A stretch of 64,000 nt of DNA, taken from Spirosoma sp. 48-14 (GTDB lineage Bacteria; Bacteroidota; Bacteroidia; Cytophagales; Spirosomataceae). The notes beneath the pieces were generated by a model. The model worked only from the letters and a program-made list of their open reading frames with translations. It was not told the origin of the DNA and did not search any database. The stretch spans positions 323,215-387,214 of the forward strand of contig NZ_MKUD01000063.1 in assembly GCF_001898575.1 (NCBI RefSeq). The letters run 5' to 3'. This document shows positions 15,110-56,266 of this stretch, one piece after another; the stretch's first letter is position 1; each line of letters begins with the position of its first letter. A program made the position numbers and the translations under genes.

Positions 15110-15144
15110 GTCCGTAACTGAACTTATCGCGTCCATAAACGGAC
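15110..15144. promoter_or_regulatory. Paired palindromic activator sites (UAS) upstream of permease 1
   Basis: Distal site GTCCGtaacTGAAC (15110-15123) has a conserved left half and degenerate right half. Proximal site GTCCAtaaaCGGAC (15131-15144) is a near-perfect palindrome. Centres are 21 bp apart, about two helical turns. The same pair occurs upstream of five other units in this window, which is the main support. Confidence 0.75.
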
Positions 15145-15197
15145 ACACAGCAATTGCCTCAAGACATATAACACTGACAATCAACTTCTTAACTTTC

Positions 15198-15212
15198 TGG
15201 TACGGCATTTGG
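15198..15212 (+). promoter_or_regulatory. Sigma-54-like -24/-12 promoter of permease 1
   Basis: TGGTACGGCATTTGG fits the sigma-54 pattern TGGCACG-N4-TTGC, with GG at -24 and TTG at -12 correctly spaced. The -24 GG is 55 bp from the end of the proximal palindrome. The gene starts 33 bp downstream. Confidence 0.7.
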
Positions 15213-15244
15213 GCATCTTTTATGAATAAACTTCAGATGCTGGT

Positions 15245-17668
15245 ATGCTACGCAATTATTTGCTAATCGCTTTTCGTAATCTGCAGAAGCACAAAACGTT
15301 TAGTTTCATCAACATTGTTGGGGTAGCCGTCGGGCTGGCGTGTTTTCTGCTCATCGCCCTGTATGTACAGGACGAACTCAGCTACGACCGCTACAACACC
15401 CATGCCGACCGAGCTTACCGGCTTACCCGTACGTTTCTTACATCGGATGGATCCCCTTCGTTGAAACTGGCGCAGGCCGCACCACCCTTTGGCCCTCTGA
15501 TCAAACAGGATTTTTCAGAAGTTGAACAGGTTGTCCGAACGCTGGACATAAGCAATGGTCTGTTACGCGTTGGCGAACATTCGTTCAATGAGCCGGACAT
15601 TTTTCTGGCCGAAGCGAATCTGTTTAAAATACTTGATTTCGATATTGTTAGTGGCAATCCCGATCAGGCACTGGCCAATCCGTTTTCGATCATGTTCTCC
15701 CGGCCTATGGCCCAAAAATATTTCGGCAGCGAAAGTCCCGTGGGCAAGACGGTTCGGTTCAATAACCAGTTCGACCTGACCGTTACGGGTGTGTACGAAC
15801 CACTACCCACTCAGGCCCATTTCCATCCCGGCTTTCTGATTTCGTTCTCGACCCTGAACGACAACCGGATTTACGGAGCCGAAGGCTTACGGACCAACTG
15901 GAGCAACAATTCCTTCAACACCTATGTATTGCTAAAACCAGGACATGACGGTGCTTCGGTCGATCCTAAACAGATTGAAGCTGGTTTTCCAGCCTTCCAG
16001 GACAAATACGTCCCAGCCGAAGAGGGTCGAAAAGCATCTACCTGGTCGGTATTGAACCTGCAAAAACTAACGGACATCCATCTTCGGTCGCATACTGATT
16101 CGGAAGTGGAGCCCACCGGCGACATCACTTATATTTATCTTTTTTCGGCCATCGGTTTATTCATTTTGCTGATTGCCTGCATCAATTATATGAATCTGGC
16201 CACTGCCCGTTCGGCGGGGCGAGCCAAAGAGGTTGGTATGCGTAAGGTTGTAGGGGCCTTGCGCAACCAGCTCATTGGTCAGTTTCTGAGCGAATCCCTG
16301 GTGCTGGTCCTGTTTGCCCTGGGCGTTGCTGTATTTCTGGTCATGCTGGGATTACCGGCTCTCAACGATTTTACCCACAAGCAACTATCGTTCAGCCAAC
16401 TCCTAAATCCAGTTTTTCTAGCCATTCTGGTCGGCATTACGCTCCTGACAGGGTTGGTGGCCGGTAGTTATCCCGCCTTTTTCCTGACCTCGTTCCGGCC
16501 ACTGGGCGTACTGAAAGGACAAATAGCCTCGACTGTACGAAGTGGAAAACTTCGGCAAGTGCTGGTTATCACCCAGTTTTCCATCGCCATTGTTCTAATC
16601 ATCAGCACCGCTGTGGTCTACAACCAGATGAAATACATCCAGAATTACCGACTGGGCTATGCGAAAGATCAAGTGTTGATTCTCCGTGATGTGGGTGATT
16701 CAACCACGAACTATGAAACACTGAAACAGCAACTGGTTCAAACCGGCTCTGTGCGCGATCTGGGTCGCTCATCGCGGATACCGTCGGGCCGACTGCTGGA
16801 TTCATACGGGGCTATGGCCATGAAAGGCGACACCATGGCTCCAGTTAAAATCAACCTGCGGGGGCTGAGTGTCGATTACGATTTTATTCCAGCCTACCAG
16901 ATCAGCATGGCCGCTGGACGCAACTTTGCCCGTACCTATTCGACCGATACAGCGATGGTTATTCTGAATGAAACCGCCGTTCGGCAACTGGGCTGGACAC
17001 CGGAGCAGGCGATTGGCAAACCATTTCACTACGGCCCCGCTAAAGGCCAGATCATTGGTGTCACGAAAGACTTTCATTTTGAGTCCCTTCACCAGCAAAT
17101 GGCAGCCCTGGCTATGATTCTGCGTCCCGGTCAGCTCAACTGGCTATCGATACCGCTCAAAGGCAATATGCCGGAAGCGGTGCAGCGGGTCGAGTCGGTC
17201 TGGAAACAGTTTTTCCCGCAACAACCGTTCGATTACAAGTTTCTGGACGAGCGCTTTGATCGGCTCTATGCGCGTGAGCAAACTCAACAAACCCTGTTCA
17301 GCGTGTTTGCCGGCATCGCCATTCTGATTTCGTGTTTGGGTCTGTTTGGGCTGTCGATGTTTATGGCCGAAGCCCGTACCAAAGAGATTGGCATTCGAAA
17401 AGTGCTGGGCGCGTCGGAAGCCAGTCTGGTTGCCCTGTTCTCAAAAGACTTTATGAAGCTGGTGCTGGTCGCGCTGGTTATTGCCTCACCCGTGGCCTGG
17501 TACGCCATGCACAACTGGCTGAAGGATTTTGCCTATCGTACCGACATTCAGTGGTGGGTATTTGCGCTGGCTGGTGGCCTGACGGTTCTGATCGCCCTGC
17601 TGACGGTCAGTTTCCAAAGTGTAAAAGCGGCCCTAACGAATCCAATTAAATCACTTAAATCAGAATAG
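15245..17668 (+). CDS. FtsX/MacB-like permease 1 (orphan, internally duplicated)
   Basis: An 807-residue inner-membrane protein with the MacB_PCD-FtsX architecture repeated twice. It has a first TM helix at about 20-42, a periplasmic domain to about 290, then three helices carrying the cytoplasmic loop RAKEVGMRKVVGA (326-338). A second periplasmic domain ends in TKDFHFESLHQQ, and three last helices carry RTKEIGIRKVLGAS (711-724). It ends SVKAALTNPIKSLKSE. In MacB/FtsX proteins these loops contact an ABC ATPase; no ATPase gene is nearby. Its own sigma-54-like promoter and paired palindromes lie upstream. It heads the first permease unit. Substrate is unknown; export or mechanical signalling at the envelope is the family expectation. 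Confidence 0.93.
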   Translation: MLRNYLLIAFRNLQKHKTFSFINIVGVAVGLACFLLIALYVQDELSYDRYNTHADRAYRLTRTFLTSDGSPSLKLAQAAPPFGPLIKQDFSEVEQVVRTLDISNGLLRVGEHSFNEPDIFLAEANLFKILDFDIVSGNPDQALANPFSIMFSRPMAQKYFGSESPVGKTVRFNNQFDLTVTGVYEPLPTQAHFHPGFLISFSTLNDNRIYGAEGLRTNWSNNSFNTYVLLKPGHDGASVDPKQIEAGFPAFQDKYVPAEEGRKASTWSVLNLQKLTDIHLRSHTDSEVEPTGDITYIYLFSAIGLFILLIACINYMNLATARSAGRAKEVGMRKVVGALRNQLIGQFLSESLVLVLFALGVAVFLVMLGLPALNDFTHKQLSFSQLLNPVFLAILVGITLLTGLVAGSYPAFFLTSFRPLGVLKGQIASTVRSGKLRQVLVITQFSIAIVLIISTAVVYNQMKYIQNYRLGYAKDQVLILRDVGDSTTNYETLKQQLVQTGSVRDLGRSSRIPSGRLLDSYGAMAMKGDTMAPVKINLRGLSVDYDFIPAYQISMAAGRNFARTYSTDTAMVILNETAVRQLGWTPEQAIGKPFHYGPAKGQIIGVTKDFHFESLHQQMAALAMILRPGQLNWLSIPLKGNMPEAVQRVESVWKQFFPQQPFDYKFLDERFDRLYAREQTQQTLFSVFAGIAILISCLGLFGLSMFMAEARTKEIGIRKVLGASEASLVALFSKDFMKLVLVALVIASPVAWYAMHNWLKDFAYRTDIQWWVFALAGGLTVLIALLTVSFQSVKAALTNPIKSLKSE

Positions 17669-17675
17669 CATGGAG

Positions 17676-27013: not shown

Positions 27014-27049
27014 GTCCGCAAACGAATGAGCGACCGTCCGTTTGCGGAC
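27014..27049. promoter_or_regulatory. Paired palindromic activator sites upstream of permease 5
   Basis: Distal GTCCGcaaaCGAAT (27014-27027) and perfect proximal GTCCGtttgCGGAC (27036-27049), centres 22 bp apart. Same design as at 15110-15144. Confidence 0.8.
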
Positions 27050-27102: not shown

Positions 27103-27117
27103 TGGTATACCTTTTGG
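27103..27117 (+). promoter_or_regulatory. Sigma-54-like promoter of permease 5, overlapped by a TAnnTTTG box
   Basis: TGGTATACCTTTTGG has the -24 GG and -12 TTG spacing of sigma-54 promoters. The -24 GG is 55 bp after the proximal palindrome. TATCTTTG (27095-27102) directly abuts its upstream edge and could be a housekeeping -7 box. Confidence 0.7.
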
Positions 27118-27184: not shown

Positions 27185-29611
27185 ATGCTAAAAAATTATT
27201 TCACCACAGCTCTTCGCGCTCTCCGGCGCAACTGGAACTACACGGTTATCAATGTACTGGGGTTAACCTTCGGACTGGCCTGCTGCCTGATTCTGTTTCT
27301 GGCTATCCGGCATGAACTGAGTTACGACCGACACAATGCCAATGCTGATCGCACGTACCGGCTCGTTTCGTACAATAAAAAATCGGAAGACGAAGGGCGC
27401 AATGTAGGCATTCCAATGCCTGCCTTAGCCGCTTTACGCAACGACTTCCCCGAACTGAAGCATCAGGTCACGATGGCGTATGGACTGTATGATGGTCTAG
27501 TTAAAGTGAATGACAAAAAAGCCAGCAAATTTCAGGAGCATGGTGGCGTAATCGCCTTCATCGAGCCAGAGTACTTCCGCATTTTCGATTACCAGTGGAA
27601 AGCCGGGAATCCTCAAACAGCCCTTAAAAATCCGAACACAGTTGTCCTTTCGGAAGCCATAGCGCACAAATACTTTGGCGATGTTGATCCAATGGGCAAA
27701 AGCATCCGGGTAGAGAATAAAGTGGACTTTACCGTAACAGGCATTGTTCAGAATCCGCCTGCCACCAGCAGTGTTCCTTTCGACGTGCTACTGTCCTTTG
27801 CATCCCTCAAACAATACGGTGTTAACGGTGGCTGGGACGACTGGGGGGCTTCGTACAGTGGAGCTCATATCTACCTGACTCTCCCGAATCAGGTTACCTC
27901 GGCGCAAATGGAAGCGCAACTGGTTCCGTTTGTCAAGAAATACATGCAGCCTGAGCAGGCCAATGAACTACAATATGAACTCCAGCCGCTAACCAGCATC
28001 CATTCCGATACACGCACCGAAAATGCAGCCGGACGTACGGTGAGCAAACAGATGATCTGGGCGATGGCCCTGATTGGCCTGTTCATTCTATTTACGGCCT
28101 GCATCAACTTCATCAATCTGGCTACGGCACAGGCCATTCGTCGGGCTAAAGAAGTGGGCGTTCGGAAAGTACTGGGCAGTTCACGTATGCAGTTGGTACG
28201 GCAGTTTCTGAGCGAAACGGGATTACTTACCCTACTGGCTATCGTGCTGGCGTTTGGTATAGCCTCTCAATCGTTGCCCTATGTTTCAGAGCTGCTGGAC
28301 ATCAAAGCGACTGCGCTTACGCTGATCGATCCTACGGTAATTGGTTTCGTGATTATCCTGGCGCTCCTGACAACGCTGCTGGCCGGTTTTTATCCGGCCT
28401 TAGTACTGTCGGGTTATCAGCCCGTTCAGGCATTACGCAGTAAGATTCGCATGGCGGGGAGCAGTCAGCTAACCCTTCGCCGGAGCCTGATTGTGTTTCA
28501 GTTTGCCATTTCACAAATACTGGTCATTGGCACCATCATCGCCTATAGCCAGATGAACTACTTCCGCTCGGCCGATCTGGGCTACAATAAGGATGCCGTA
28601 CTGACCGTCAATATCCCCGAACGTAAACCGGGGCAACTGGAGCAACTCAAATCCGAAATTGCGCAACTACCGAACGTAAAAGCGCTGAGTTACGGCATTT
28701 CCATTCCTTCAGCCGACGGTAACTGGTGGACAGGCATCCGCTATGAGAACGCCGATAAAGATGCCGACTTTGGGGTGATCATGCGCTATGCAGACACCGC
28801 TTATTTCAGCACTTATGGCCTGAAGCTGATTGCCGGACGGATGTATCAGCCGGGCGATACCGCTCGGGATATTGTCGTAAACGAATCGATGGTTAAAAAG
28901 CTGGGACTCCGCAGCCCTCAACAGATTCTGGGCAAATCCATAACCATTGCAGGTGGCAACAACCCAAAAAAGCAGGTGGTTGGCGTAGTTCATGACTTTA
29001 ATACCTTCTCGCTGCACCAGCAAACGAACCCCTGTATTCTGGCGCCCCGTCGTAGCGCCTACCATACGCTGGGCATCAAACTATCGACCCAACAGGGTGG
29101 AACGGAAGCCATTAGCCGATTGATTCGTCAGGTCGAAACCAACTGGACTGCCGTCTATCCCGACTTTGTTTTCCAGTACCAGTTTCTGGATCAGCAACTG
29201 GCGGATTTCTACAAGGGCGAAGAGCGTTTCTTCTCTCTCTTCCGACTGCTGGCCGGTATTGCCATTTTCATTGGTTGCCTTGGTCTGTATGGTGTAGTCG
29301 CCTTCATGGCCGAATCGCGAACCAAAGAAATTGGCATTCGCAAAACACTGGGCGCGTCAACAGCGCATATTTTCAGCCTGTTCTCAGTCGATTTTATCAA
29401 ACTGATCATTGTCGCCCTGGTCATTGCGTCGCCTGCGGCCTGGTATATTATGACGAAATGGCTGGCCGACTTTCCGTACAAGATCGACATCGAGTGGTGG
29501 ATGTTTGTCCTGACGGGAGTACTGGCTGTAGGCATCGCCCTCATTACGGTCAGTTTCCAAAGCCTGAAAGCAGCGTTTATCAATCCAGTGAAAAGCTTGC
29601 GCAGCGAGTAG
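27185..29611 (+). CDS. FtsX/MacB-like permease 5
   Basis: An 808-residue paralogue (MLKNYFTTALRALRRNWNYT). The loops read RAKEVGVRKVLGS (from 320) and RTKEIGIRKTLGAS (from 712). The second periplasmic motif is VVHDFNTFSLHQQTNPCIL. It has its own palindrome pair and sigma-54-like promoter and is followed by 311 bp of non-coding DNA with another such promoter region, so it is probably a single-gene unit. Confidence 0.93.
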   Translation: MLKNYFTTALRALRRNWNYTVINVLGLTFGLACCLILFLAIRHELSYDRHNANADRTYRLVSYNKKSEDEGRNVGIPMPALAALRNDFPELKHQVTMAYGLYDGLVKVNDKKASKFQEHGGVIAFIEPEYFRIFDYQWKAGNPQTALKNPNTVVLSEAIAHKYFGDVDPMGKSIRVENKVDFTVTGIVQNPPATSSVPFDVLLSFASLKQYGVNGGWDDWGASYSGAHIYLTLPNQVTSAQMEAQLVPFVKKYMQPEQANELQYELQPLTSIHSDTRTENAAGRTVSKQMIWAMALIGLFILFTACINFINLATAQAIRRAKEVGVRKVLGSSRMQLVRQFLSETGLLTLLAIVLAFGIASQSLPYVSELLDIKATALTLIDPTVIGFVIILALLTTLLAGFYPALVLSGYQPVQALRSKIRMAGSSQLTLRRSLIVFQFAISQILVIGTIIAYSQMNYFRSADLGYNKDAVLTVNIPERKPGQLEQLKSEIAQLPNVKALSYGISIPSADGNWWTGIRYENADKDADFGVIMRYADTAYFSTYGLKLIAGRMYQPGDTARDIVVNESMVKKLGLRSPQQILGKSITIAGGNNPKKQVVGVVHDFNTFSLHQQTNPCILAPRRSAYHTLGIKLSTQQGGTEAISRLIRQVETNWTAVYPDFVFQYQFLDQQLADFYKGEERFFSLFRLLAGIAIFIGCLGLYGVVAFMAESRTKEIGIRKTLGASTAHIFSLFSVDFIKLIIVALVIASPAAWYIMTKWLADFPYKIDIEWWMFVLTGVLAVGIALITVSFQSLKAAFINPVKSLRSE

Positions 29612-29772: not shown

Positions 29773-29807
29773 GTCCGTAAACAACACCCAGTCGTCCGTT
29801 AGCGGAC
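29773..29807. promoter_or_regulatory. Paired palindromic activator sites upstream of permease 6
   Basis: Distal GTCCGtaaaCAACA (29773-29786) keeps only the left half. Proximal GTCCGttagCGGAC (29794-29807) is perfect. Centres are 21 bp apart. Confidence 0.75.
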
Positions 29808-29873
29808 AAGGGCGCTCAATACCATACAGGGCATTTCCCTGATAATCAATAAGATAGCTCAAGTAAAAAGATT

Positions 29874-29888
29874 TGGTTATGTATTTGT
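29874..29888 (+). promoter_or_regulatory. Possible, weakly supported sigma-54-like promoter of permease 6
   Basis: TGGTTATGTATTTGT has TGGT and TTTG at the right distance from each other, but its -24 GG is 68 bp from the proximal palindrome, against 55-57 elsewhere. An alternative at 29862-29876 (AGTAAAAAGATTTGG) has the right distance but a damaged -24 element. I cannot choose. Confidence 0.4.
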
Positions 29889-29922: not shown

Positions 29923-32307
29923 ATGATCAGAAACTACCTCAAAATCGCACTGCGGAATCTTTGGAAAAACCGCCTGTTTAGTAGTCTCAATGTTATGGGG
30001 ATGGGGATTGGTCTGGCGGCTGTCGGGCTGATGAGCCTGTACATCATCCACGAACTCAGCTACGACCGTTTTCATACCAACGCCGACCGGATTGTTCGGG
30101 TCGTTCACTATGCGAACTGGCCCGGTGGTAACCTCCAGCTTGCGCCTACCTCTGCCCCTTTTGCCGATGCACTGAAAGCCGAATACCCAGACATTGAGAA
30201 AACCGTACGCATTCATCCCGAAGGTGGTGGACAGATCACGTACAAGGATAAAAAGCTGGACGTTGGCGACATCATGTTTGCCGACAAAACAGTATTCGAC
30301 GTTTTCTCCTTCCCGTTTCTATACGGCGATCCAGCCAGCGCCCTCACGCAGCCGCAGAGCATTGTCCTGACCAAAAGCCTGGCTGAAAAACTGTTTGGCG
30401 ATGCCGCTAAAGTCGTTGGGCAGACAATCGAATTCAGCAATCACTTTCCTAACAAAGTAACGGGGGTTATAGAAGATGTTCCGTCCAGCTCGCATTTACA
30501 GTTCAGTGCTCTGCGGTCGCTACCCGATAACTTCACCAACGGCTGGCAGAATTTCGAGCTATATACCTACTTACTGCTAGCCAAAGGCAGCGATTACAAA
30601 ACGCTGGAACCTAAGCTGGCTTCTTTCTTCCCCAAATACCTCAAACGGGAAATGGGCGACGTAACGTACCGCATGGAGTTACAGCCAATAACCTCGATTC
30701 ACCTGCATTCGCACCTGGATTACGAAATTAGTCCAAACGGCAACAGTACCACCATCTATACTTTTGCTGTAGTGGCGGCCCTGATTTTATTGATTGCCGG
30801 TATCAACTATGTCAACCTCTACACCGCTCGCTCTATTGCTCGTACCCGCGAAGTGGGCGTTCGGAAAGCGATTGGCTCCCGTCGTGGTCAGTTGATGAGC
30901 CAGTTCCTGACCGAGTCGATGCTGATGGCATTTCTGGCTAGCCTGGTCGGCCTACTATTAGCTAAGGCAGCATTGCCTCTGTTCAATGATCTGGCAGGTA
31001 AATCGCTGACGTTAAGTCAATATGGCCCCGTGGCCACGGGTCTGGTGCTGGTGGCATTTACCGTTTTGCTGGGCGTTGGCAGTGGTCTTTATCCGGCATT
31101 TCTTCTTTCCGGCTTCCGGCCGGTTGTAGCCCTCAACGGGCGGCTGGGGATGAAACTCGGCGGCAGTCGATTCCGCGAAGCACTGGTTGTGTTTCAGTTC
31201 GTTGCGGCTGTTGTCCTGATTGCCTGTTCGTGGGTTATTTACCGGCAGATGGGCTATTTCCTGCATAAAGACCTGGGATTCAACAAAGATCAGGTGCTAA
31301 CCTTCCATCTGGATAATCAGGGCGTCCGCAAACAGATTCAATCATTGAAAGAAGAGCTGCGGAAAAGTCCGCTGATTGAGCAGGTATCGGCCGCCACCAA
31401 TCCGATTGGCAACAACAACATTGGCACCAATGGCATGTTTTTCGAGCAGAATGGCGTCATGCCAACGAGTACGCAGATCGTTCAAACGTTCCAGGTCGAC
31501 GCCGATTATCTGAATACTATGCAAATCAAGTTGCTGGAAGGCCGCAACTTTACTGAGTCGATCAGCGATGGGTTCGGCGCGGTGCTTGTCAACGAAACCC
31601 TGGCCAAAACGCTGGGCTGGCAGCATCCGGTGGGTAAGCGCGTCAAGTATTTCCTGGGCAAAGATCAAACCGCCGAAGCACGGGTGATAGGCGTTGTCAA
31701 AGACTTCCATACGTACTCGCTCCAGCATAAAATTGAGCCACTGGTGTTGCAAATGCCCGCTCCTGATCAAAAAGATAACCTGTATGTTCGGATTCGGCCT
31801 GCCAAAACAACGGAAGCACTGGCTTATATCCAGTCGGTTTACCAGAAATTTGATCCCGATGCGGAGTTAAGCTTCCATTTTCTGGACGAGAACTTTTCCC
31901 AACAGTATCAGGCCGAGCAAAAGCAGGGGACGGTCTTACTTACCTTTACCATATTGGCTGTACTGATTGCCTGCATGGGCTTGTTTGGACTGGCCGCTTT
32001 TGCCGCTGAAGCCCGGACGAAAGAAATTGGCGTTCGGAAAGTATTGGGCGCTTCGGTGGCGAGTATTGTCGCTTTGCTAAGTAAGGATTTTCTCAAGCTG
32101 GTTCTCATCGCAATCGTCGTAGCGACACCGCTTGCCTGGTACATTGCCAATCAGTGGCTACAAAGTTTTGCCTACAAGATCGAGCTTACGTGGTGGTTCT
32201 TCATACTGGCCGGTCTGATTGCTATCGTTATTGCCCTGGCTACCGTCAGTTTCCAAAGTGTTAAAGCCGCGTTGATGAATCCAGTTAAATCATTACGTTC
32301 GGAATGA
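29923..32307 (+). CDS. FtsX/MacB-like permease 6
   Basis: A 794-residue paralogue (MIRNYLKIALRNLWKNRLFS). The loops read RTREVGVRKAIGS (from 307) and RTKEIGVRKVLGAS (from 698). The second periplasmic domain has VVKDFHTYSLQHKIEPLVL. It is the first gene of a three-permease run (6, 7, 8) on one strand, with gaps of about 93 and 102 bp filled by palindromic repeats. A perfect 29-bp inverted repeat overlaps its stop codon. Confidence 0.92.
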   Translation: MIRNYLKIALRNLWKNRLFSSLNVMGMGIGLAAVGLMSLYIIHELSYDRFHTNADRIVRVVHYANWPGGNLQLAPTSAPFADALKAEYPDIEKTVRIHPEGGGQITYKDKKLDVGDIMFADKTVFDVFSFPFLYGDPASALTQPQSIVLTKSLAEKLFGDAAKVVGQTIEFSNHFPNKVTGVIEDVPSSSHLQFSALRSLPDNFTNGWQNFELYTYLLLAKGSDYKTLEPKLASFFPKYLKREMGDVTYRMELQPITSIHLHSHLDYEISPNGNSTTIYTFAVVAALILLIAGINYVNLYTARSIARTREVGVRKAIGSRRGQLMSQFLTESMLMAFLASLVGLLLAKAALPLFNDLAGKSLTLSQYGPVATGLVLVAFTVLLGVGSGLYPAFLLSGFRPVVALNGRLGMKLGGSRFREALVVFQFVAAVVLIACSWVIYRQMGYFLHKDLGFNKDQVLTFHLDNQGVRKQIQSLKEELRKSPLIEQVSAATNPIGNNNIGTNGMFFEQNGVMPTSTQIVQTFQVDADYLNTMQIKLLEGRNFTESISDGFGAVLVNETLAKTLGWQHPVGKRVKYFLGKDQTAEARVIGVVKDFHTYSLQHKIEPLVLQMPAPDQKDNLYVRIRPAKTTEALAYIQSVYQKFDPDAELSFHFLDENFSQQYQAEQKQGTVLLTFTILAVLIACMGLFGLAAFAAEARTKEIGVRKVLGASVASIVALLSKDFLKLVLIAIVVATPLAWYIANQWLQSFAYKIELTWWFFILAGLIAIVIALATVSFQSVKAALMNPVKSLRSE

Positions 32308-32390
32308 TGTAGAGACGCGATACCTCGCGTCTCAAGACCGGATGTTTATTACTGACGCATATGAGACGCGAGGTATCGCGTCTCTACATC
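32306..32390. repeat. Palindromic element, GTAGAGACGC family, copy 3
   Basis: A perfect 29-bp inverted repeat: 32306-32334 against 32362-32390, starting GATGTAGAGACGCG and overlapping the permease 6 stop (32305-32307). The loop again holds GACCGGATG and CTGACGCA. Confidence 0.9.
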
Positions 32391-32400
32391 CCTACTTCCT

Positions 32401-34761
32401 ATGCTAACCAACTACCTCAAAATCGCACTTCGAAATTTATTGCGGAGTAAGGGCTTTTCGGTTATCAACATCGTCGGTCTGTCTATCGGCATGGCCAGCG
32501 CCATTCTGATTATTCTCTGGATCCAGCACGAACTCAGCTACGATCAGTTTCACGAAAAAAAAGACCGGATTTATGAAGCCTGGAATCGGTCGATTTTCAG
32601 CAATAAACTGGAATGCTGGAATACGACGCCACGGGTGCTGGCAAAGACCATGACCCGTGATTTCCCGGAAGTAGAACGCACAGCCCGTGTCGACTGGACC
32701 CAGGACATGCTGTTTACGGTTGGTGATAAACGGCTGGTGGCAAAAGGCAATGTCGTGGATTCGACGTTCCTGAGCATGTTCAGTTTTCCTTTACTGCGGG
32801 GCAATCCGCAAACGGTGCTGAACGGGGCAAATACCCTTGTCGTTACCGAGAAGCTGGCGCAAAAGCTGTTTGGTAACGCCGATCCTATGGGTCGTACCGT
32901 AAAGCTGAACAACAAAGACCTGTTCACCGTAACTGGCGTGTTGAAAGACCTGCCCACCAACACCCGGTTCAACTTTGAGTATTTATTATCCTGGGCCTAC
33001 AACCGACAAAACGGCAATGACGACGAGTATTGGGGCAATAATTCAACCCAAACGTATGTCGAATTGAAACCGAAGGCCACGCTGGCCTCCATTGAGCCCA
33101 AGTTAAAATTGCTGCGTAAACGGTATGACAAAGACGACCCGAAAGGCGAGGTTTTCCTCTACCCCATGAGCCGGTGGCGGTTATACTCCAGTTTTACGCA
33201 TGGTGTCGAAAACGGGGGACTGATTGATTTTGTCAAGCTCTTTGGCCTCATTGCCGTCTTTATTCTGCTGATTGCCTGTATCAATTTCATGAACCTGAGT
33301 ACGGCCCGTAGCGAGAAACGAGCCAAAGAGGTAGGCATTCGGAAAGCATCGGGAGCACAGCGCGGTTCGCTGATTGCTCAGTTTCTGGGCGAATCTATTT
33401 TAATTGCTTTTCTGGCAGGCATTGCCGCCCTTGGTATTGTACAGGCCAGTTTACCCGCTTTCAACACGCTGACGGATAAACTCCTGTCGGTTCCTTACAA
33501 CCAACTGTATGCCTGGTTCTTTTTCGGCGGTTTTGTGCTGCTGTCCGGACTGCTGGCGGGTAGTTATCCAGCATTTTTTCTCTCGTCCTTTAAACCCGTA
33601 AACGTGTTAAAGGGCCACTTCCGAAAAGTAAATGCGCTCATAACGCCCCGAAAAGTACTGGTTGTACTTCAGTTCACGTTTGCCGTTATGCTGATTATCA
33701 GCACCATCATTGTTCGTGAGCAGATTCAGTATGCCCGCGACCGAAGCATGGGTTACGCCAAAGACAATCTGATTTATCATAGCCTGTCGGGCGATATTGG
33801 CAAAAACTACGAACTCATCAAGAACGAGTTGATGACCAGCCAGGTAGCCGTTTCGATCAGCAAAACCAGTGCGCCACTTACCCAGGGGTGGAGCAATAGC
33901 TGGGGCTTTCAATGGGCGGGGAAAGCTCAAAATGACAAAACCATCATTGATCGATTCGGTGCCGACGATAACCTGATCAAAACGACGGGCCTACAACTGG
34001 CACAGGGCCGCGACTTCGACCTGAAACAATACCCCAGCGACTCAACGGCGATGATTTTGAACGAGTCGGCCGTCAAATTAATGGGATTCAAACAGCCAAT
34101 TGGTCAGGTCGTACAAGACAATGGGCGCGATTGGCACGTGGTGGGGGTTATTAAAGATTTTATTCTTCAGTCGCCCTATTTTCCGACCAAGCCAATGGCC
34201 ATCGAAGGTAGTAAAGGCTGGCTCAGTATCATGCATATTAAACTGAATCCGGCCAATTCAACCGAACAGAACCTACGCAAAGCCGAGGCTATTTTCAAAA
34301 AATACAATCCGGAATATCCATTTGATTACAAGTTTATCGATCAGGAATACGCCCAAAAATTCGATAACGAACAACGGATTGCCACCCTTTCGGGCCTGTT
34401 CGCTGGCCTGACGATCCTTATTTCGTGTCTGGGCCTGATTGGTCTGGCAACGTTTACGGCCCAGCAACGCACCAAAGAAATTGGCATTCGTAAAGTTTTG
34501 GGGGCATCCATACTAAGTGTCGTTGCGCTACTGTCCAAAGACTTTGTGCGGCTGGTGATCATCTCGATCCTGATTGCCTCGCCGATAGCCTGGTACGCGA
34601 TGGATAAATGGCTGGCCGACTACGAGTACAAAGTTCAGATTCAGTGGTGGATGTTTGTGCTAGCGGGCCTGCTGGCCGTAGGCATTGCCTTACTAACCGT
34701 GTCGTTCCAATCGATAAAAGCAGCTTTGATCAATCCAGCAAAATCACTCAAAACGGAATAA
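32401..34761 (+). CDS. FtsX/MacB-like permease 7
   Basis: A 786-residue paralogue (MLTNYLKIALRNLLRSKGFS). The loops read RAKEVGIRKASGA (from 307) and RTKEIGIRKVLGAS (from 690). The second periplasmic motif is degenerate: VIKDFILQSPYFPTKPMAI lacks the usual H-F-x-S-L-H. It starts 11 bp after a palindromic element and has no promoter of the palindrome/sigma-54 type, so it probably depends on the permease 6 promoter. Confidence 0.92.
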   Translation: MLTNYLKIALRNLLRSKGFSVINIVGLSIGMASAILIILWIQHELSYDQFHEKKDRIYEAWNRSIFSNKLECWNTTPRVLAKTMTRDFPEVERTARVDWTQDMLFTVGDKRLVAKGNVVDSTFLSMFSFPLLRGNPQTVLNGANTLVVTEKLAQKLFGNADPMGRTVKLNNKDLFTVTGVLKDLPTNTRFNFEYLLSWAYNRQNGNDDEYWGNNSTQTYVELKPKATLASIEPKLKLLRKRYDKDDPKGEVFLYPMSRWRLYSSFTHGVENGGLIDFVKLFGLIAVFILLIACINFMNLSTARSEKRAKEVGIRKASGAQRGSLIAQFLGESILIAFLAGIAALGIVQASLPAFNTLTDKLLSVPYNQLYAWFFFGGFVLLSGLLAGSYPAFFLSSFKPVNVLKGHFRKVNALITPRKVLVVLQFTFAVMLIISTIIVREQIQYARDRSMGYAKDNLIYHSLSGDIGKNYELIKNELMTSQVAVSISKTSAPLTQGWSNSWGFQWAGKAQNDKTIIDRFGADDNLIKTTGLQLAQGRDFDLKQYPSDSTAMILNESAVKLMGFKQPIGQVVQDNGRDWHVVGVIKDFILQSPYFPTKPMAIEGSKGWLSIMHIKLNPANSTEQNLRKAEAIFKKYNPEYPFDYKFIDQEYAQKFDNEQRIATLSGLFAGLTILISCLGLIGLATFTAQQRTKEIGIRKVLGASILSVVALLSKDFVRLVIISILIASPIAWYAMDKWLADYEYKVQIQWWMFVLAGLLAVGIALLTVSFQSIKAALINPAKSLKTE

Positions 34762-34768
34762 AAAGCGT

Positions 34769-34832
34769 GGTGCATGGAGCTAGGAGTAAAATACTCCCTG
34801 CCCCTTGCACCATGCACCGCGCTCCATGCACC
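34769..34832. repeat. Inverted heptamer repeat between permeases 7 and 8
   Basis: GGTGCATGGAGC (34769-34780) and GCTCCATGCACC (34821-34832) are inverted, with an inner GGAGTA/TACTCC pair. Units of 7 bp (GTGCATG, GAGCTAG, GAGTAAA) are visible. It begins 8 bp after the permease 7 stop and is followed by CTCCTCGCTTTTTTT, so terminator or attenuator activity is possible. Confidence 0.75.
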
Positions 34833-34863
34833 CTGCTCCTCGCTTTTTTTAACCTCCTTTCCT

Positions 34864-37326: not shown

Positions 37327-37362
37327 GTCCACTGGCGTACAGTGTTTTGTCCGATTTCGGAC
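37327..37362. promoter_or_regulatory. Paired palindromic activator sites upstream of the secreted-protein gene
   Basis: Distal GTCCActggCGTAC (37327-37340) and perfect proximal GTCCGatttCGGAC (37349-37362), centres 22 bp apart. Confidence 0.75.
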
Positions 37363-37415: not shown

Positions 37416-37430
37416 TGGCATGATCATAGA
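37416..37430 (+). promoter_or_regulatory. Sigma-54-like promoter of the secreted-protein/permease 9 unit
   Basis: TGGCATGATCATAGA has a good -24 element (TGGCAT) and a weak -12 (ATAGA). The -24 GG is 55 bp from the proximal palindrome, the same as at permeases 1 and 5, which is the main reason to believe it. Confidence 0.6.
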
Positions 37431-42157: not shown

Positions 42158-42159
42158 TT

Positions 42160-42217: not shown

Positions 42218-42241
42218 TAAAACCATAACCCCAAAAAAACT

Positions 42242-44016: not shown

Positions 44017-44027
44017 GGTTTATGGTT

Positions 44028-44098: not shown

Positions 44099-44168
44099 GC
44101 CAGCATGCAACCCCACCGTGTCAATTTGCATCCTGCTATTGATACAACCCTCAAACCAGCTCAATCCC

Positions 44169-45378: not shown

Positions 45379-45413
45379 GTCCGCAACTGAACTAAACCCG
45401 TCCGAAACCGGAC
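45379..45413. promoter_or_regulatory. Paired palindromic activator sites upstream of permease 10
   Basis: Distal GTCCGcaacTGAAC (45379-45392) and perfect proximal GTCCGaaacCGGAC (45400-45413), centres 21 bp apart. Confidence 0.8.
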
Positions 45414-45468
45414 GCAGTTGCTTCTTATTTCCAAAGTAAATAATTGACAATCAGGAGAGTAAAACAGA

Positions 45469-45483
45469 TGGTATAATATTTGA
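45469..45483 (+). promoter_or_regulatory. Sigma-54-like promoter of permease 10
   Basis: TGGTATAATATTTGA, with the -24 GG 57 bp after the proximal palindrome and the gene starting 35 bp downstream. Confidence 0.7.
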
Positions 45484-45517: not shown

Positions 45518-47869
45518 ATGCTTAGCAATTATCTAAAAATAGCACTCCGTAATTTCTGGCGAAACAAGCTTTATACCAGCCTGAATGTCGGTGGCTTGGC
45601 TATTGGCTTAGCCGCCTGTTTGCTAATGGTTTTGTACGTTGACCACGAGTTTTCGTATGATCAGTTTCATCCCAAAGCCAGACGGATTGTTCGGGTAACC
45701 AGTGTAATGAAAACGCCAGAGTCATCGCTGGCTATAGCTTCTGACCCAATACCACTAGCCCCCACCCTGAAACGAGATTACCCAGAAGTAGAGACCGCCG
45801 TTCGCTTTCTAATGACGGGGGGAACTGTCAAAACGAACGATAAGCTAGTCAACCAGGCTGATGTATACTATGCCGATAACGACGTTTTTTCGGTATTTGC
45901 CTATCCATTTTTAGCGGGTAATCCGGCTACGGCTTTAGTCAATCCCAATAGCGCTGTCGTTACCGAAAAGTTCGCCCATAAATACTTCGGCAAAACGGAT
46001 ATACTAGGCAAATCGATTGAGATCAATAAGACTACTTATCAAATTACGGGCGTTATGGCTAACCTGCCCAGTAATACCGATCTGCCTATCAGCGCCTTAC
46101 TGTCTAAAAAGCAATCTGAATCAACGGATTGGCTGGGCGATGATTTCCCGGCTTATACGTACATACTGTTTAGGAACGAGCCAAACCTACCGGATTTCTC
46201 AAAAAAGCTGGCTAAACTGTCAAAAAAATACCTGGCTCCTGCGCTAAAAAAAGCAGGCGCCGAAAATTACTCGATTAACTTTGACCTAGAGCCGCTGACC
46301 GATGCCCACTACAGCCAGGGCAAACTAGAAGATACGCCAAAAGGCAATCGGCAATTCAGTTATTTGTTTGCCTTTCTGGCCGTATTTGTGCTGGTAATTG
46401 CCCTTCTGAACTACATCAATCTGCTGACAGCCAAAGCAACGGAACGAGCCAAAGAAGTGGGTATTCGTAAAGCAACGGGAGCGCAGTATGGCCAATTGGT
46501 CCGACAGTTTCTGCTCGAATCGCTTTTGCTCAGTGGTTTATCCATTGGCATTGCCCTTGGCTTATTGCAATTAACGATTCCGTTGTTCAACGACCAGCTG
46601 GCTATTCAGATGCAGTTTGGCTGGGCCGAAGCCGTTTCAGTAGTTGTTTGTACCTGGCTCATAGTCACGCTATTGGGAGGACTATACCCCGCTTTCGTAC
46701 TATCAGGCTATCGGCCTGTTGAGGTCTTGAAGGGGCAGCTAACCAGTCATGGACAGGGCTTGTGGCTCCGGAAAACAATTATCGTATTTCAGTTTGTGCT
46801 GGCAGTGAGCATGATCGCTGGTGTATTGGTTATTCATCGGCAGATGCATTACCTCCAGCATTATGACGTTGGTTATACCCGCGAACAAATCCTTAGTCTT
46901 TACTTACCCGATGATTCGACTGCCCGGGCGGCTGCACCCGCCTTTGCCAATAGTTTGAAACAACATTCGGAAGTCGATGGTATAACGCTGGGATTCGGCT
47001 TAGCAAACGGGCCAATGGCGATGTCTTCAACGACGATTCGAACCAATGGCAAAAAACGGGAAGTGATGAGCAATTACCTGTTCATCGACGATAAGTTCGT
47101 ACCACTCCTGAATATAGGCTTGAAAGCCGGGCGAAATTTATCTTCCCAATACAAAACAGATCTGAACGGAGGCTTTCTGGTCAATGAGGCTTTTGTAAAA
47201 ATGGCGGGCTGGAAACAGGGTGAAGGACAGGCTATTTCAGGATTTGGTCATAAAGGCACAGTAGTAGGTGTTTTAAAGAATTTCAATTATCGCTCCCTGC
47301 ACAATCCAGTTGAGCCATTGGTACTCATCTACTGCACTGTCCCGGCCATTAATGTAATGGCCCGTGTAAGGCCAAGCGCATTACCGATCATACAAACAAT
47401 CTGGCAACAACACTATCCTAACTATCCGTTTGAGTACAGCTTCCTGGATACATCGTTCGATTCGGAGTACCGAAAAGATCGGCTTATGATGATGATTTTC
47501 AATTGTTTTGCCGGGCTTACTATTTTGGTTTCCTGTCTGGGGCTCTTTGGCCTGATAGCCTTTACAACCGAGCGCCGAACCAAAGAAATTGGCGTTCGAA
47601 AAGTACTGGGGGCATCGGTAGCCAATATTGTTACGCTACTCACCAACGATTTCCTGAAACTGATTGGTATAGCCATTCTGATTGCCAGTCCGCTAGCCTG
47701 GTGGGCCGCCGATCGCTGGCTACAGGCGTTTGCGTATAAAACCGATCTGTCGTGGTGGGTATTTGCCCTGGCGGGGGTTCTGTCCATCGCCATTGCCTTG
47801 CTGACGATTAGTTTCCAAAGTATAAAAGCGGCCCTGATGAATCCTGTTAACTCACTTAAAACGGAATAG
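45518..47869 (+). CDS. FtsX/MacB-like permease 10
   Basis: A 783-residue paralogue (MLSNYLKIALRNFWRNKLYT). The loops read RAKEVGIRKATGA (from 310) and RTKEIGVRKVLGAS (from 687). The second periplasmic motif is VLKNFNYRSLHNPVEPLVL, with N for the usual D. It heads a separate unit under its own palindrome pair and sigma-54-like promoter, with permease 11 and a small protein downstream. An imperfect heptamer repeat starts directly after the stop codon. Confidence 0.93.
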   Translation: MLSNYLKIALRNFWRNKLYTSLNVGGLAIGLAACLLMVLYVDHEFSYDQFHPKARRIVRVTSVMKTPESSLAIASDPIPLAPTLKRDYPEVETAVRFLMTGGTVKTNDKLVNQADVYYADNDVFSVFAYPFLAGNPATALVNPNSAVVTEKFAHKYFGKTDILGKSIEINKTTYQITGVMANLPSNTDLPISALLSKKQSESTDWLGDDFPAYTYILFRNEPNLPDFSKKLAKLSKKYLAPALKKAGAENYSINFDLEPLTDAHYSQGKLEDTPKGNRQFSYLFAFLAVFVLVIALLNYINLLTAKATERAKEVGIRKATGAQYGQLVRQFLLESLLLSGLSIGIALGLLQLTIPLFNDQLAIQMQFGWAEAVSVVVCTWLIVTLLGGLYPAFVLSGYRPVEVLKGQLTSHGQGLWLRKTIIVFQFVLAVSMIAGVLVIHRQMHYLQHYDVGYTREQILSLYLPDDSTARAAAPAFANSLKQHSEVDGITLGFGLANGPMAMSSTTIRTNGKKREVMSNYLFIDDKFVPLLNIGLKAGRNLSSQYKTDLNGGFLVNEAFVKMAGWKQGEGQAISGFGHKGTVVGVLKNFNYRSLHNPVEPLVLIYCTVPAINVMARVRPSALPIIQTIWQQHYPNYPFEYSFLDTSFDSEYRKDRLMMMIFNCFAGLTILVSCLGLFGLIAFTTERRTKEIGVRKVLGASVANIVTLLTNDFLKLIGIAILIASPLAWWAADRWLQAFAYKTDLSWWVFALAGVLSIAIALLTISFQSIKAALMNPVNSLKTE

Positions 47870-47944
47870 AAGGAGGAAGGCAAAAAGGAGAAAGAAACCA
47901 ATTATGCTCACCTCTTCTCCTTTTTCCCTTCTCCCTTCTCCCTT
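47870..47944. repeat. Imperfect inverted heptamer repeat between permeases 10 and 11
   Basis: Purine-rich left side (GGAGGAA, GGCAAAA, AGGAGAA) mirrored by pyrimidine-rich right side (CTTCTCCTTTTTCCCTTCTC). It starts at the first base after the permease 10 stop. The same GGGAGAA-type units occur inside the gene at 60336-60420. Confidence 0.7.
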
Positions 47945-47958
47945 AATGCCCTCTTCCC

Positions 47959-50334
47959 ATGCTCCAAAACTTCTTTAAAACGGCCTTTCGAAATCTCTGG
48001 AAACACAAGCTGTTTACCTTCATCAACATCTTTGGCCTGGCGTCGGGGATGCTGGTGTGTATGTTGGCGATGATCGACATAAAAGGGGCTTTTGACTACG
48101 ACACCTTTCATCCGAACGCCGACCGAACGTACCGGATTCTTACCGACGTCACGACGACCAGCAACGACAAACAGGGATTTGCCACCTCGCCCTTACCCCT
48201 GGCAGAAACCCTAAAACGTCAATACGCTTTTGTGGACCGGGCCACCCGAGTCATTCGTCACAATGGCGACTTTACGGCCAATCGAAAACAATTGCCGGTA
48301 GTCTATAGCGCTGTTGATCCTGATTTCTTTACCCTTTTCGGCTTTCAACTGGCAAAAGGACAAGCTGCTATTACACCACGCACAGCCGTACTTACTCCCC
48401 AAACGGCAGCACGTTTTTTCGGCACAGCCAATCCAATTGGCAAACGCATCGACCACCCCGAGCTAGGTGCGTTGACTATTTCCGGTATTTTGGCTGAACC
48501 ACCCGCTAAAACCCACCTGAATTTCGATGTACTGATTTCAACAGCCTCCCTTTCTGGTTCGGATTGGAATCAATTACGCACTAACTGGAAACAGTATACG
48601 CAAGGGTATACGTACATCTCGCTCAAGCCCGGCACCTCTGCTGATGCGCTCACAAATGTGCTACCTGCCTTAGCTGCTCAGGTAACCAAAGGCTTACACT
48701 TTGCCAACGAAAAAGGGTATACGTTCCGCAGTCAGTCGTTGGCAACCCTTTCACCATCGCGGGAAGAGTTGATGCTGGGCACCTATGAACCTTCGTCGGG
48801 TAAGTTGGAAACCGAAATGATCGTTGGCTTACTTACGCTGTTGCTGGCTTCGTTCAACTACATCAACCTGACCCTGGCCCGCTCCCTGAGTCGCGCCCGT
48901 GAAGTCGGAATCCGGAAAGTAGCTGGCGCCTTGCGCTGGCAACTGATGGGACAGTTTATGGCCGAATCAGCCATCCTATCCATTCTGGGGCTTGGCTTAG
49001 CGTATGGGATGCTGCAATTGGTAAAACCTATGCCTTTTGTACAACAATGGCTCATTGGTGGCGTACAGTGGGAGCAGGATGTACGCGTTTGGATTGTGTT
49101 CATTCTCTTTAGCCTGATCACGGGTATGCTGGCGGGTCTGTTGCCTGCCCGTGTTCTGTCGGGATTTCAACCAGCTCAGGTGCTAAGGAGCCAAACGGGT
49201 CTGCGTGTATTCCGGGGCATTACGTTACGCAAGTCACTGATTGTGATTCAGTTTTCGATTTCACTGGTGGCCATGATCGCTTTGCTGGGTATGGCTCGGC
49301 AGCAACATTACATGGGTACGGCGGACTATGGTTTTCAACGGGATAATGTGCTGACGATCCCGCTAAACGGTTCTTCTGCCGGACGGTTATCGACAGAAAT
49401 CAATCGTCTGGCGGGCGTAGAGCACGTTAGCGCTACTGTAGCCAGGTTAGGCGATCATGGTGGTAACGGGCAAATGGTGCACCGTCAGCGAACCGGGGGC
49501 GATTCCGCAGCAACGGATGTTTTTTCAACCGATACGAATCTTCTATCAACCGTTGGGCTAACGTTAGTAGCAGGTCAGAATATGCCCGCATCGGTATCCG
49601 ATTCAGCATCGCATCTTGTTCTGGTCAATGAAGAAGCCGTGCGGGCGTTTAAGCTGGGCGAACCGGGAGCCGCCGTAGGCCAAACGCTCTGGCTGAACGA
49701 CAGCACCGAGGTTCAGATCGCAGGTGTTGTGAAAGATTTTCAGTTTACCACGATGGCCATGAAAATACATCCGCTGATGCTTCGCTACCAACCTGACCAA
49801 TTTCGGTTTCTGAATGTAAAAGTGGCCGACGGCAATCCCGAAGCCGTTAAAGCCAGCATTGCCCAAGTCTGGAAACGGCAGAATCCGTACGAGCCTTTCG
49901 AAGGAGTCTGGTACGATACCTATCTGTCCGACCGACATAGCCATACCGACGACATTTCCTTTATGGGGTTATTGATTGGTTTTGCGTTATCGATTGCCTG
50001 TCTGGGGCTATTGGGTATGGTCACGTATACGACCCAGCTACGCACTAAAGAAGTGGGTATTCGTAAAGTTATGGGCGCCCGTATCGATCAGGTTATCTGG
50101 TTGTTATCGTGGGATTTCCTGAAGCTATTATTGATTGCCGGTGCCATTGCCCTTCCTATTGGGTATCTGGCCACCAGTTTCTTTCTGATGTCCTTCGCCT
50201 ATCACATTTCGGTAGGTGTGGGTATGTTAGGTGCCTGTTTTGGCACGATGTTACTTTTAGGCGGTTTAACGATTGGCTGGCGCACGTATCGAACAGCGCT
50301 GACCAATCCAACGGATAGTTTACGGTCTGAATAG
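47959..50334 (+). CDS. FtsX/MacB-like permease 11 (somewhat divergent)
   Basis: A 791-residue paralogue (MLQNFFKTAFRNLWKHKLFT). The loops read RAREVGIRKVAGA (from 312) and RTKEVGIRKVMGAR (from 695). The second periplasmic motif is VVKDFQFTTMAMKIHPLML. The end (WRTYRTALTNPTDSLRSE) departs from the SFQS-KAAL ending of most others. It has no palindrome pair of its own and starts 89 bp after permease 10, so it likely shares that promoter. Confidence 0.92.
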   Translation: MLQNFFKTAFRNLWKHKLFTFINIFGLASGMLVCMLAMIDIKGAFDYDTFHPNADRTYRILTDVTTTSNDKQGFATSPLPLAETLKRQYAFVDRATRVIRHNGDFTANRKQLPVVYSAVDPDFFTLFGFQLAKGQAAITPRTAVLTPQTAARFFGTANPIGKRIDHPELGALTISGILAEPPAKTHLNFDVLISTASLSGSDWNQLRTNWKQYTQGYTYISLKPGTSADALTNVLPALAAQVTKGLHFANEKGYTFRSQSLATLSPSREELMLGTYEPSSGKLETEMIVGLLTLLLASFNYINLTLARSLSRAREVGIRKVAGALRWQLMGQFMAESAILSILGLGLAYGMLQLVKPMPFVQQWLIGGVQWEQDVRVWIVFILFSLITGMLAGLLPARVLSGFQPAQVLRSQTGLRVFRGITLRKSLIVIQFSISLVAMIALLGMARQQHYMGTADYGFQRDNVLTIPLNGSSAGRLSTEINRLAGVEHVSATVARLGDHGGNGQMVHRQRTGGDSAATDVFSTDTNLLSTVGLTLVAGQNMPASVSDSASHLVLVNEEAVRAFKLGEPGAAVGQTLWLNDSTEVQIAGVVKDFQFTTMAMKIHPLMLRYQPDQFRFLNVKVADGNPEAVKASIAQVWKRQNPYEPFEGVWYDTYLSDRHSHTDDISFMGLLIGFALSIACLGLLGMVTYTTQLRTKEVGIRKVMGARIDQVIWLLSWDFLKLLLIAGAIALPIGYLATSFFLMSFAYHISVGVGMLGACFGTMLLLGGLTIGWRTYRTALTNPTDSLRSE

Positions 50335-55633: not shown

Positions 55634-56160
55634 TTCACTCCATGATTAGGTTAAAAAGAACACCTACGCCAGTGACTGACTGGTGCTAATGGAAAAAGAA
55701 CAGGCGCTTTATTACGAAGAAAGAAATCTGAGCAAGGCAGGTACCACGCCCTTCCTCGTTGTTGTACTTAGAGACTTACTGATGCTGGCCAGGCATGCAA
55801 CCGAACAACCTGTTGTCAGGCTATTTTTAATCCAAATATAATTCCAATAAAAACATAAAATCAATACTATATTTTTAATTAAAATATTTATTCACAATTT
55901 TATTCTAATATATTATTGAATATTTAAAATATTATTTCAAATTCTTTGATTATTTCAAAATAAAACCCAAAACAGCCTAAAAATTCAATCAATCAACTAA
56001 GTATTTTTTCAAGATAATTACCTGACTTATAAACAGTATTCAGCGCTACAGATCCGTATAAATAACTAGCAATAGTACCATTTTGCAATTTACGGCACTT
56101 TATTATGTGCCAATTAATGACCTAACGAAATACTATGGATCTTGGTAAAGCGTCATACCT
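55634..56160. other. Non-coding region upstream of susC2, AT-rich
   Basis: No gene is seen here. Bases 55830-56060 are strongly A/T-rich. The susC2 leader occupies the first 190 bp or so. I found no riboswitch, tRNA or attachment site. The divergent DUF4097 unit has its control elements just beyond, at 56161-56266. Confidence 0.6.
55833..55864 (-). promoter_or_regulatory. Candidate promoter of susC2
   Basis: Minus-strand TATATTTG (55833-55840) fits the TAnnTTTG -7 box. TTG at 55862-55864 lies 21 bp further upstream, a plausible -33 element. It predicts a leader of about 190 nt. Confidence 0.5.
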
Positions 56161-56196
56161 GTCCGCCAATGAACAGCCATCTGTCCGCAGACGGAC
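56161..56196. promoter_or_regulatory. Paired palindromic activator sites upstream of the DUF4097 gene
   Basis: Distal GTCCGccaaTGAAC (56161-56174) and perfect proximal GTCCGcagaCGGAC (56183-56196), centres 22 bp apart. Confidence 0.8.
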
Positions 56197-56251
56197 AGGC
56201 GAAATACCCTCCTTGCAATCAATGCACTAAAAATCAACAACTTACCTAAAC

Positions 56252-56266
56252 TGGCACACCCCTTGC
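56252..56266 (+). promoter_or_regulatory. Consensus sigma-54 promoter of the DUF4097 gene
   Basis: TGGCACACCCCTTGC has both TGGCAC and TTGC with exact sigma-54 spacing, the best match in the window. The -24 GG is 57 bp after the proximal palindrome. The gene starts 110 bp downstream; CATCTTTG at 56343-56350 may be a second, weak -7 box. Confidence 0.85.

Follow-up and report, generated by a model that had tools for sequence, protein, structure and literature searches.

What controls the six transcription units that share one upstream design in a 64-kb stretch of the Spirosoma sp. 48-14 genome (C63:323215-387214, in an 8.68-Mb genome of 89 contigs, here numbered C; the whole stretch is called the window)? 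Upstream of these units, whose first genes start at 15245, 27185, 29923, 37468, 45518 and 56376 (units 1 to 6), a sequence-only reading had proposed a palindrome, GTCCG-N4-CGGAC, preceded by a degenerate second copy and followed by a sigma-54-like promoter. Our analysis indicates that the six units very probably belong to one regulon of about 22 promoters, which would be switched on by a two-component system made up of an NtrC-type regulator encoded 46 kb to the left and, probably, a kinase encoded two genes on.

Within the window, GTCC-N6-GGAC occurs six times, and these six places are identical to the proposed sites, compared with a mean of 0.72 and a maximum of 3 in 300 dinucleotide shuffles. 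The full GTCCG-N4-CGGAC was found five times (shuffled mean 0.05, largest 1) and the strict composite of site plus promoter three times, against none in the 300 shuffles; chance palindromes are thereby ruled out for the exact core. Every site has a second copy upstream, so the common design of the six units was borne out. As proposed, this distal copy is imperfect and starts 21-22 bp upstream in all six, whereas its supposed TGAAC type holds for three units only, the right halves of units 2, 3 and 4 reading CGAAT, CAACA and CGTAC (Table 1). The distance from proximal site to promoter, given earlier as 55-57 bp counted to the GG, agrees with the 53, 53, 53, 55 and 55 bp that we measured for units 1, 2, 4, 5 and 6.

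Scanning the whole genome widened the set from six units to 22 promoters. All 10 genomic copies of GTCCG-N4-CGGAC precede genes with a promoter-like element, two of these elements being weak. The relaxed core GTCCRNNNNYGGAC occurs in 33 places, 23 of them shortly before an open reading frame (ORF) with a promoter-like element; since C22:59259 and C22:59281 make up one pair, these 23 places represent 22 promoters. Mechanical ORFs, either short or over-long, run across three of the 23, and the other 10 of the 33 fall inside ORFs. The palindrome is thus not equally common away from promoters. A promoter score of at least 16 was reached at 20 of the 22 promoters. For the second copy, 10 letters were compared at each of four offsets and on either strand: 6-9 of them matched at the promoters (at least 7 at 20 of the 22) and 4-6 at the 10 places inside ORFs. 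Two promoters, C22:232861 and C63:279423, have effectively a half copy.

Spacing was evaluated in all fetched loci, where strand-wise readings of GTCC-N6-GGAC gave 105 sites with a second copy and 207 without. A TGG element scoring at least 17 lay within 110 bp in 73 of the 105 paired readings, and the resulting 74 elements were found at 52-56 bp (59), at 64-68 bp (12) and once each at 44, 49 and 70 bp, with none at 57-63 bp. As a pattern that permits distances of 40-68 bp had served to fetch many of the loci, the count was repeated without these; the remaining 55 readings held 32 elements, 26 at 53-56 bp, 6 at 64-68 bp and none elsewhere. The 66-bp spacing of unit 3 recurs at other regulon members. 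The resultant length for helical phasing was 0.77 to 0.80 for periods of 10.5 to 12, and the two spacing classes fit one extra helical turn, a fit that does not prove the period.

The spacer itself carries a further element. In 43 of the 59 standard-spacing promoters, [TC]TGATAATCA[AG] starts 24-25 bp before the TGG, with T-rich positions further on at -10 to -8, an arrangement resembling the IHF consensus. Matches anywhere in the spacer were found in 47 of the 59 (shuffled mean 17.5, largest 27), while in the long-spacing class the element starts at -37 to -35 in 5 of 12 promoters, and likewise in unit 3. Considering the spacers of this genome alone, the IHF consensus score was only moderately above shuffles (sum 152; mean 137, largest 148), and six spacers scored at least 8, the largest simulated count also being six. 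Beside these elements the genome has one HU/IHF-family gene, assigned to the family rather than to a subtype. At some PadR-type promoters, a strong terminator-like hairpin stands in place of the IHF-like element; such hairpins (A-run, GGCC- or GCCC-type stem, T-run; z about -4 to -9) lie between the sites and the -24 element at loci L029, L033, L051, L256, L093 and L095. A hairpin visibly similar by eye occurs at C28:109615 (L246), and since the upstream neighbour there is divergent, it is not obviously that gene's terminator.

The sequence-only reading had found no regulator in the window, and none is there; the likely one is encoded on the same contig, 45.8 kb to the left of the window (C63:276,038-277,429, minus strand). 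Its 463-aa product exceeds the cut-offs for PF00072 (receiver, 66.1 bits), PF00158 (AAA+, 228.6 bits) and PF02954 (Fis-type helix-turn-helix, 56.8 bits), has Walker A GENGTGKD and Walker B IFLDEI, and has its nearest named relatives in Spirosoma (88-89% identity); it scored below the cut-off of every NCBIfam family among the matches listed (25 of 64). A kinase gene with HATPase_c and PAS domains lies two ORFs away (272,560-273,912), and beyond a glycosyltransferase-like gene there is a MacA-ATPase operon that starts with paired sites and TGGCATGACTATTGG. The genome has twelve PF00158 matches, eight of them strong, and one rpoN (a single PF04552 match, 186.6 bits). The MacAB-linked activators appear as a TDA-loop clade: both of those in this genome (L043:13038-14429 and L056:7139-8539) read GAFTDA, and among the named relatives of the regulator (L129-L208) 79 of 80 end in TDA and one reads GAYTGA. 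In the genome's six other strong activators the loop is GAFTGA or GSFTGA.

The linkage between sites and regulator extends beyond this genome. The regulator gene is divergent from an adjoining MacA-ATPase operon, which in most cases includes a permease, in Larkinella, Dyadobacter, Persicitalea, Chitinophaga, Emticicia and Ferruginibacter, and the sites lie between the two, although in some of these loci the ORF choice of our script hides the regulator or an operon gene. An NtrC-type regulator gene with the same sites beside it, which the sequence-only reading had suggested looking for, was thus found in several genera. Of the 80 named loci, 9 have an exact palindrome in the 600 bp ahead of the regulator ortholog; these upstream regions make up 5% of the 946 kb and contain 13 of its 19 exact sites. 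Degenerate copies are present at L134, L135, L141 and L145, and in Fibrella (L132) different genes neighbour the regulator.

The strict composite was present in 88 of 150 genomes from the family. We divided the genomes by their best match in the regulator search. The 85 genomes whose regulator ortholog is at least 62% identical (two of these matches being partial) held 446 composites against 106 in the reversed control, with composites outnumbering controls in 66 of them, whereas the 34 genomes without an ortholog or with paralogs only held 9 against 3 (Mann-Whitney p about 3e-7 between the two groups, the genomes not being independent). Phylum-wide, the composite occurs in 37 of 296 genomes, and many of these matches are probably chance. 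Every composite was inspected in two genomes, 11 in G004 (same genus) and 8 in G031 (another genus): the next ORF belongs to the same gene classes in 16 of the 19, two more reach these classes after one or two small unmatched ORFs, and one (a 209-aa ORF) is unmatched. The pattern accordingly precedes homologous permeases in other genomes as well. Sites, pairing, spacing, regulator linkage and conservation can all be read from the DNA itself, and the genome scan, the single rpoN, the other genomes and the regulator beside the sites together support the predicted sigma-54 enhancer geometry.

In the mechanism that we infer, dimers of the regulator, phosphorylated probably by the neighbouring kinase, would bind both palindromes and oligomerise on them, and a spacer bend of the IHF/HU type would help the regulator to touch sigma-54 polymerase waiting at -24/-12. 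With spacings of 52-56 or 64-68 bp, the activator would stay on the same side of the helix. As regards signal and function, the target set reads as an envelope or antimicrobial-peptide stress response.

Several observations weigh against the proposed regulon or narrow its extent. The palindrome by itself, if two mismatches are permitted, is about as common in the window as chance predicts (26 against 25.5 expected), so that the signal comes from the exact core together with pairing and promoter distance; genome-wide, the plain palindrome is rarer than its reversed control (GTCCG-N4-CGGAC, 10 against 25; GTCCRNNNNYGGAC, 33 against 78), and the case therefore rests on pairing, spacing and position. 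Promoter elements are weak at C1:246686 (score 15) and in unit 3 (score 14), whereas two of the 10 ORF places reach a promoter score of 17 and three of them reach 6 of 10 second-copy matches, the lowest value among the promoters. Many promoters are akin by duplication or descent, and their counts are not independent. In the long-spacing class, IHF-like matches (6 of 12) were not above shuffles (mean 3.5, largest 8). No excess was found in the 31 genomes with a best regulator match of 49-61% (5 composites against 16 in the control), for which the motif is therefore not claimed, nor in the 16 genomes of genus g32, with orthologs of 62-65% (mean 1.0 against 1.3). Distant orthologs show other half-sites, which confines the motif to part of the clade. 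Finally, the loop of the candidate regulator reads GAFTDA, not GAFTGA, and a pull-down with VfmH of Dickeya, which is also GAFTDA, showed no sigma-54 contact (PMC10714721). For Desulfovibrio, GAFTDA is given among the loop sequences compatible with activation (PMC4641369), and in NorR a G to D change at the same loop position leaves the protein active and makes it signal-independent (PMC2941729).

Among the alternatives, the one that survives best, although improbable, is that the palindromes bind some other regulator, PadR-like or another NtrC-type protein, with the MacAB-linked regulator uninvolved. Eight strong sigma-54 activator matches in the genome and PadR-like genes among the targets leave room for it, and neighbourhood alone is no proof of binding. 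However, sites adjoin orthologs of the MacAB-linked regulator in several genera, composites are enriched only where a close ortholog exists, the nearest paralog has its own, different half-site, and GTCC-N6-RGAC around the other six strong activators (L052-L055, L057 and L058) gave a single unpaired match, at L052. Still less likely is that the promoters are of the ordinary house-keeping type, with the TGG...TTG match a by-product. The house-keeping promoter consensus of Bacteroidota is TTTG and TAnnTTTG; in many promoters the -12 part is TTTG, and in some it resembles TAnnTTTG (TACCTTTTG in unit 2, for example), but the 71 of 74 elements placed 52-56 or 64-68 bp from the palindromes fit sigma-54, as do elements like TGGCACACCCCTTGC and TGGCACGTCAATTGG and the type of regulator. 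That the upstream blocks are merely hitch-hiking copies from duplication of the permease family, without present function, is hardly credible, for although most targets are paralogs, with seven of the 22 promoters carrying PadR-like operons and about 21 permeases in one array, the spacers have diverged while sites, spacing and promoter persist, and the same block is kept across genera and before unrelated genes (124-aa proteins, Toastrack, serine-hydrolase-like and ATPase).

The preferred reading, a regulon under the MacAB-linked regulator, bears on how its permeases are powered. By our tally, about 21 permease genes resembling the acidobacterial duplicated orphan permeases (ADOP) lie between C63:282,600 and 373,500. 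They encode duplicated FtsX permeases without an adjacent ATPase, as ADOP do; since the two permeases searched scored 286.2 and 346.6 bits, below the TIGR03434 cut-off of 622.3, we call them ADOP-type rather than ADOP members. In 164 kb around the array, tblastn with the regulator-linked ATPase matched only that ATPase itself. Its identity is 97% in G004 and 85-88% in Dyadobacter, Chitinophaga and G031, compared with 60-93% for MacA and 33-83% for the permeases (best matches in the reference set, not assigned orthologs). Such conservation fits a part common to many partners, and other reasons are possible. We suggest tentatively, with confidence somewhat short of even, that the orphan permeases are not orphans: the regulator-linked ATPase would be the motor for the whole set, the sigma-54 regulon would co-produce motor, adaptor and permeases, and an ancestor with MacA, ATPase and permease in one operon, under an activator of its own, would have been amplified by copying of permease and site cassette together. 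If true, the amplified cassettes of permease and activator sites would amount to a switchable bank of exporters.

A sibling system offers a comparison. The second MacAB-linked regulator of the genome (C42, 466 aa) is encoded after an operon that comprises MacA-like, TolC-like, ATPase and permease genes and upstream of which lie GTGCG-N4-CACAC and GTGCG-N4-CGCAC, 20 bp start to start, then an IHF-like stretch and, 53 bp after the sites, TGGCATGTTGTTTGG. The exact GTGCG composite was found once each in 26 of the 150 genomes and never in reversed controls, and in eight of these 26 (G016, G018, G026, G082, G108, G136, G140 and G146) a paralogous regulator lies 6-8 kb beyond it on the same strand. 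The layout is therefore common to both systems with a different half-site, and only the GTCCG version has spread genome-wide; with one promoter per genome, the GTGCG system looks like the unamplified state. The recognition helices differ, LSRQALYRR in the GTCCG regulator and ITRFALYRR in the GTGCG regulator, so that the pair forms a natural experiment on the DNA-recognition code of the clade. In distant regulator orthologs (L151, L161, L188, L191, L193 and L204), apparent paired sites with TGAAC, GTATC and GTGCG were seen by eye before TGGCA promoters, and drift of the recognition code is a possible cause of such differing half-sites.

Table 1 Sites, promoter-like elements and genes of the six window units, with the regulon targets elsewhere in the genome. 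Site starts were verified by slicing; distances between copies are start to start.
Feature	Position	Strand	Details
Paired activator sites, unit 1	15110..15144 (distal 15110-15123, proximal 15131-15144)	+	from sequence; copies 21 bp apart; distal right half TGAAC
Paired activator sites, unit 2	27014..27049	+	from sequence; starts 27014 and 27036, 22 bp apart; CGAAT
Paired activator sites, unit 3	29773..29807	+	from sequence; starts 29773 and 29794, 21 bp apart; CAACA
Paired activator sites, unit 4	37327..37362	+	from sequence; starts 37327 and 37349, 22 bp apart; CGTAC
Paired activator sites, unit 5	45379..45413	+	from sequence; starts 45379 and 45400, 21 bp apart; TGAAC
Paired activator sites, unit 6	56161..56196	+	from sequence; starts 56161 and 56183, 22 bp apart; TGAAC
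Sigma-54-like promoter TGGTACGGCATTTGG, unit 1	15198..15212	+	53 bp after proximal site
Sigma-54-like promoter TGGTATACCTTTTGG, unit 2	27103..27117	+	53 bp after proximal site
Weak sigma-54-like element TGGTTATGTATTTGT, unit 3	29874..29888	+	score 14; 66 bp (long spacing)
Sigma-54-like promoter TGGCATGATCATAGA, unit 4	37416..37430	+	53 bp; imperfect -12, end reads TAGA instead of TTG
Sigma-54-like promoter TGGTATAATATTTGA, unit 5	45469..45483	+	55 bp
Sigma-54-like promoter TGGCACACCCCTTGC, unit 6	56252..56266	+	55 bp; score 20, best of six
IHF-like element, unit 1 spacer	15173..15183	+	CTGACAATCA at 15174; 24-25 bp before TGG
IHF-like element CTGATAATCA, unit 3	29838..29848	+	35 bp before TGG, like some other long-spacing promoters
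IHF-like element TTGACAATCAG, unit 5	45444..45454	+	
ADOP-type (double FtsX/MacB_PCD) permease gene, unit 1	15245..17668	+	TIGR03434 286.2 bits, cut-off 622.3
ADOP-type permease gene, unit 2	27185..29611	+	Pfam MacB_PCD twice, FtsX twice; TIGR03434 346.6 bits
Three tandem ADOP-type permease genes, unit 3	29923..37248 (29923-32307, 32401-34761, 34774-37248)	+	ORFs
Predicted secreted 209-aa protein, unit 4	37468..38097	+	related to 20861-21475 and to a protein in the Dyadobacter operon (L134)
Two ADOP-type permease genes, unit 5	45518..50334 (45518-47869, 47959-50334)	+	
Predicted secreted Toastrack (DUF4097) protein, 350 aa, unit 6	56376..57428	+	PF13349 37.2 bits, cut-off 22.9
Target: MacA plus MacB-type ATPase operon	C63:279423		
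Target: DUF2911 gene, then permease	C63:300649		spacing 44
Target: MacB-type ATPase with TolC-like and MacA-like genes	C22:232861		
Targets: four paralogous 124-aa proteins	C3:20291, C9:273277, C81:183814, C88:3791		L059, L060, L067, L068
Targets: seven PadR-like plus permease operons	C19 (two), C22:59281, C28 (two), C58, C88:111694		
Target: permease with N-terminal extension	C1		
Target: serine-hydrolase-like gene	C10		from sequence reading

Gaps of 93 and 12 bp make it likely that the permease trio of unit 3 is one transcription unit. The secreted protein of unit 4 has no Pfam match and aligns with its two relatives at 25-30% identity; this small secreted family accompanies permeases (window 20861-21475 and 37468-38097; L134:2452-3054; L048:3466-3828), and one member sits within the Dyadobacter MacA-ATPase-permease operon. 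Within the permease array, a row at 40774-45347 comprises a likely extracytoplasmic-function (ECF)-type sigma factor gene, judged by sequence and place, an anti-sigma-like gene (zf-HC2 plus HEAT), two Toastrack genes and a beta-lactamase-family serine hydrolase. Elsewhere in the genome, the four 124-aa proteins look exported and have near-identical sigma-54-like promoters ending in TTTGGAT; the one of the four that was searched has a marginal DUF3244 match. PadR was confirmed by Pfam in one of the seven PadR-like operons and assigned by resemblance in the other six, and Pfam found no HAAS domain at the N-terminus of two PadR-linked permeases.

Two-component regulons of the NtrC family acting through sigma-54, such as NtrBC, ZraSR, CbrAB and the like, are the closest known systems, with which the predicted regulon shares a response regulator of receiver, AAA+ and Fis-type helix-turn-helix, paired palindromes and -24/-12 promoters. 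It departs from them in having sites about 55 bp from the -24 element and a GAFTDA loop, and in the repetition of these sites at some 22 promoters, largely of one amplified transporter family. MacAB-TolC is a type of tripartite efflux system, and like it the regulator locus has a MacA-like adaptor and a MacB-type ATPase, and the C22 and C42 clusters hold genes called TolC-like from their sequence and location; unlike it, ATPase and permease are here separate genes, the permease being amplified to about 21 in one array. For the NtrC family, looping is described as often IHF-aided, with sites usually 100-150 bp upstream of the promoter (PMC7057263).

Double FtsX/MacB_PCD permeases in large paralogous sets are also the mark of ADOP (TIGR03434), of which 28 and 33 copies are given for two Dyadobacter (PMC11573002); unlike ADOP, the permeases here are tied to a regulator and an ATPase, and the two searched stay below the family cut-off. 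DUF4097/DUF2807 Toastrack proteins and PadR-coupled FtsX/MacB_PCD proteins have been presented as membrane-stress modules and partners of the phage-shock-protein (PSP) system (PMC11237479), whereas here both the Toastrack and the PadR-permease kinds come under one predicted sigma-54 activator. Sigma-54 promoters before COG0577 FtsX-like permeases were predicted in Bacteroidia in 2025, as a claimed first evidence (PMC12316311); the part of that paper dealing with them gives class-level statistics without an activator, activator sites, a regulon or spacing, all of which are predicted here. Within the terms that we used, a search of one open-access library found no description of this regulator, its sites or its regulon. 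For a large permease family of unknown function and power source, the analysis supplies a likely regulator in several genera, along with a promoter type and candidate partners, which makes it testable what signal is sensed, whether one ATPase serves many permeases, and how a regulon grows when a three-part promoter cassette is copied. Two-component sigma-54 regulons are already known as a kind, and what is added here is a real and conserved, if predicted, regulon together with its likely activator.

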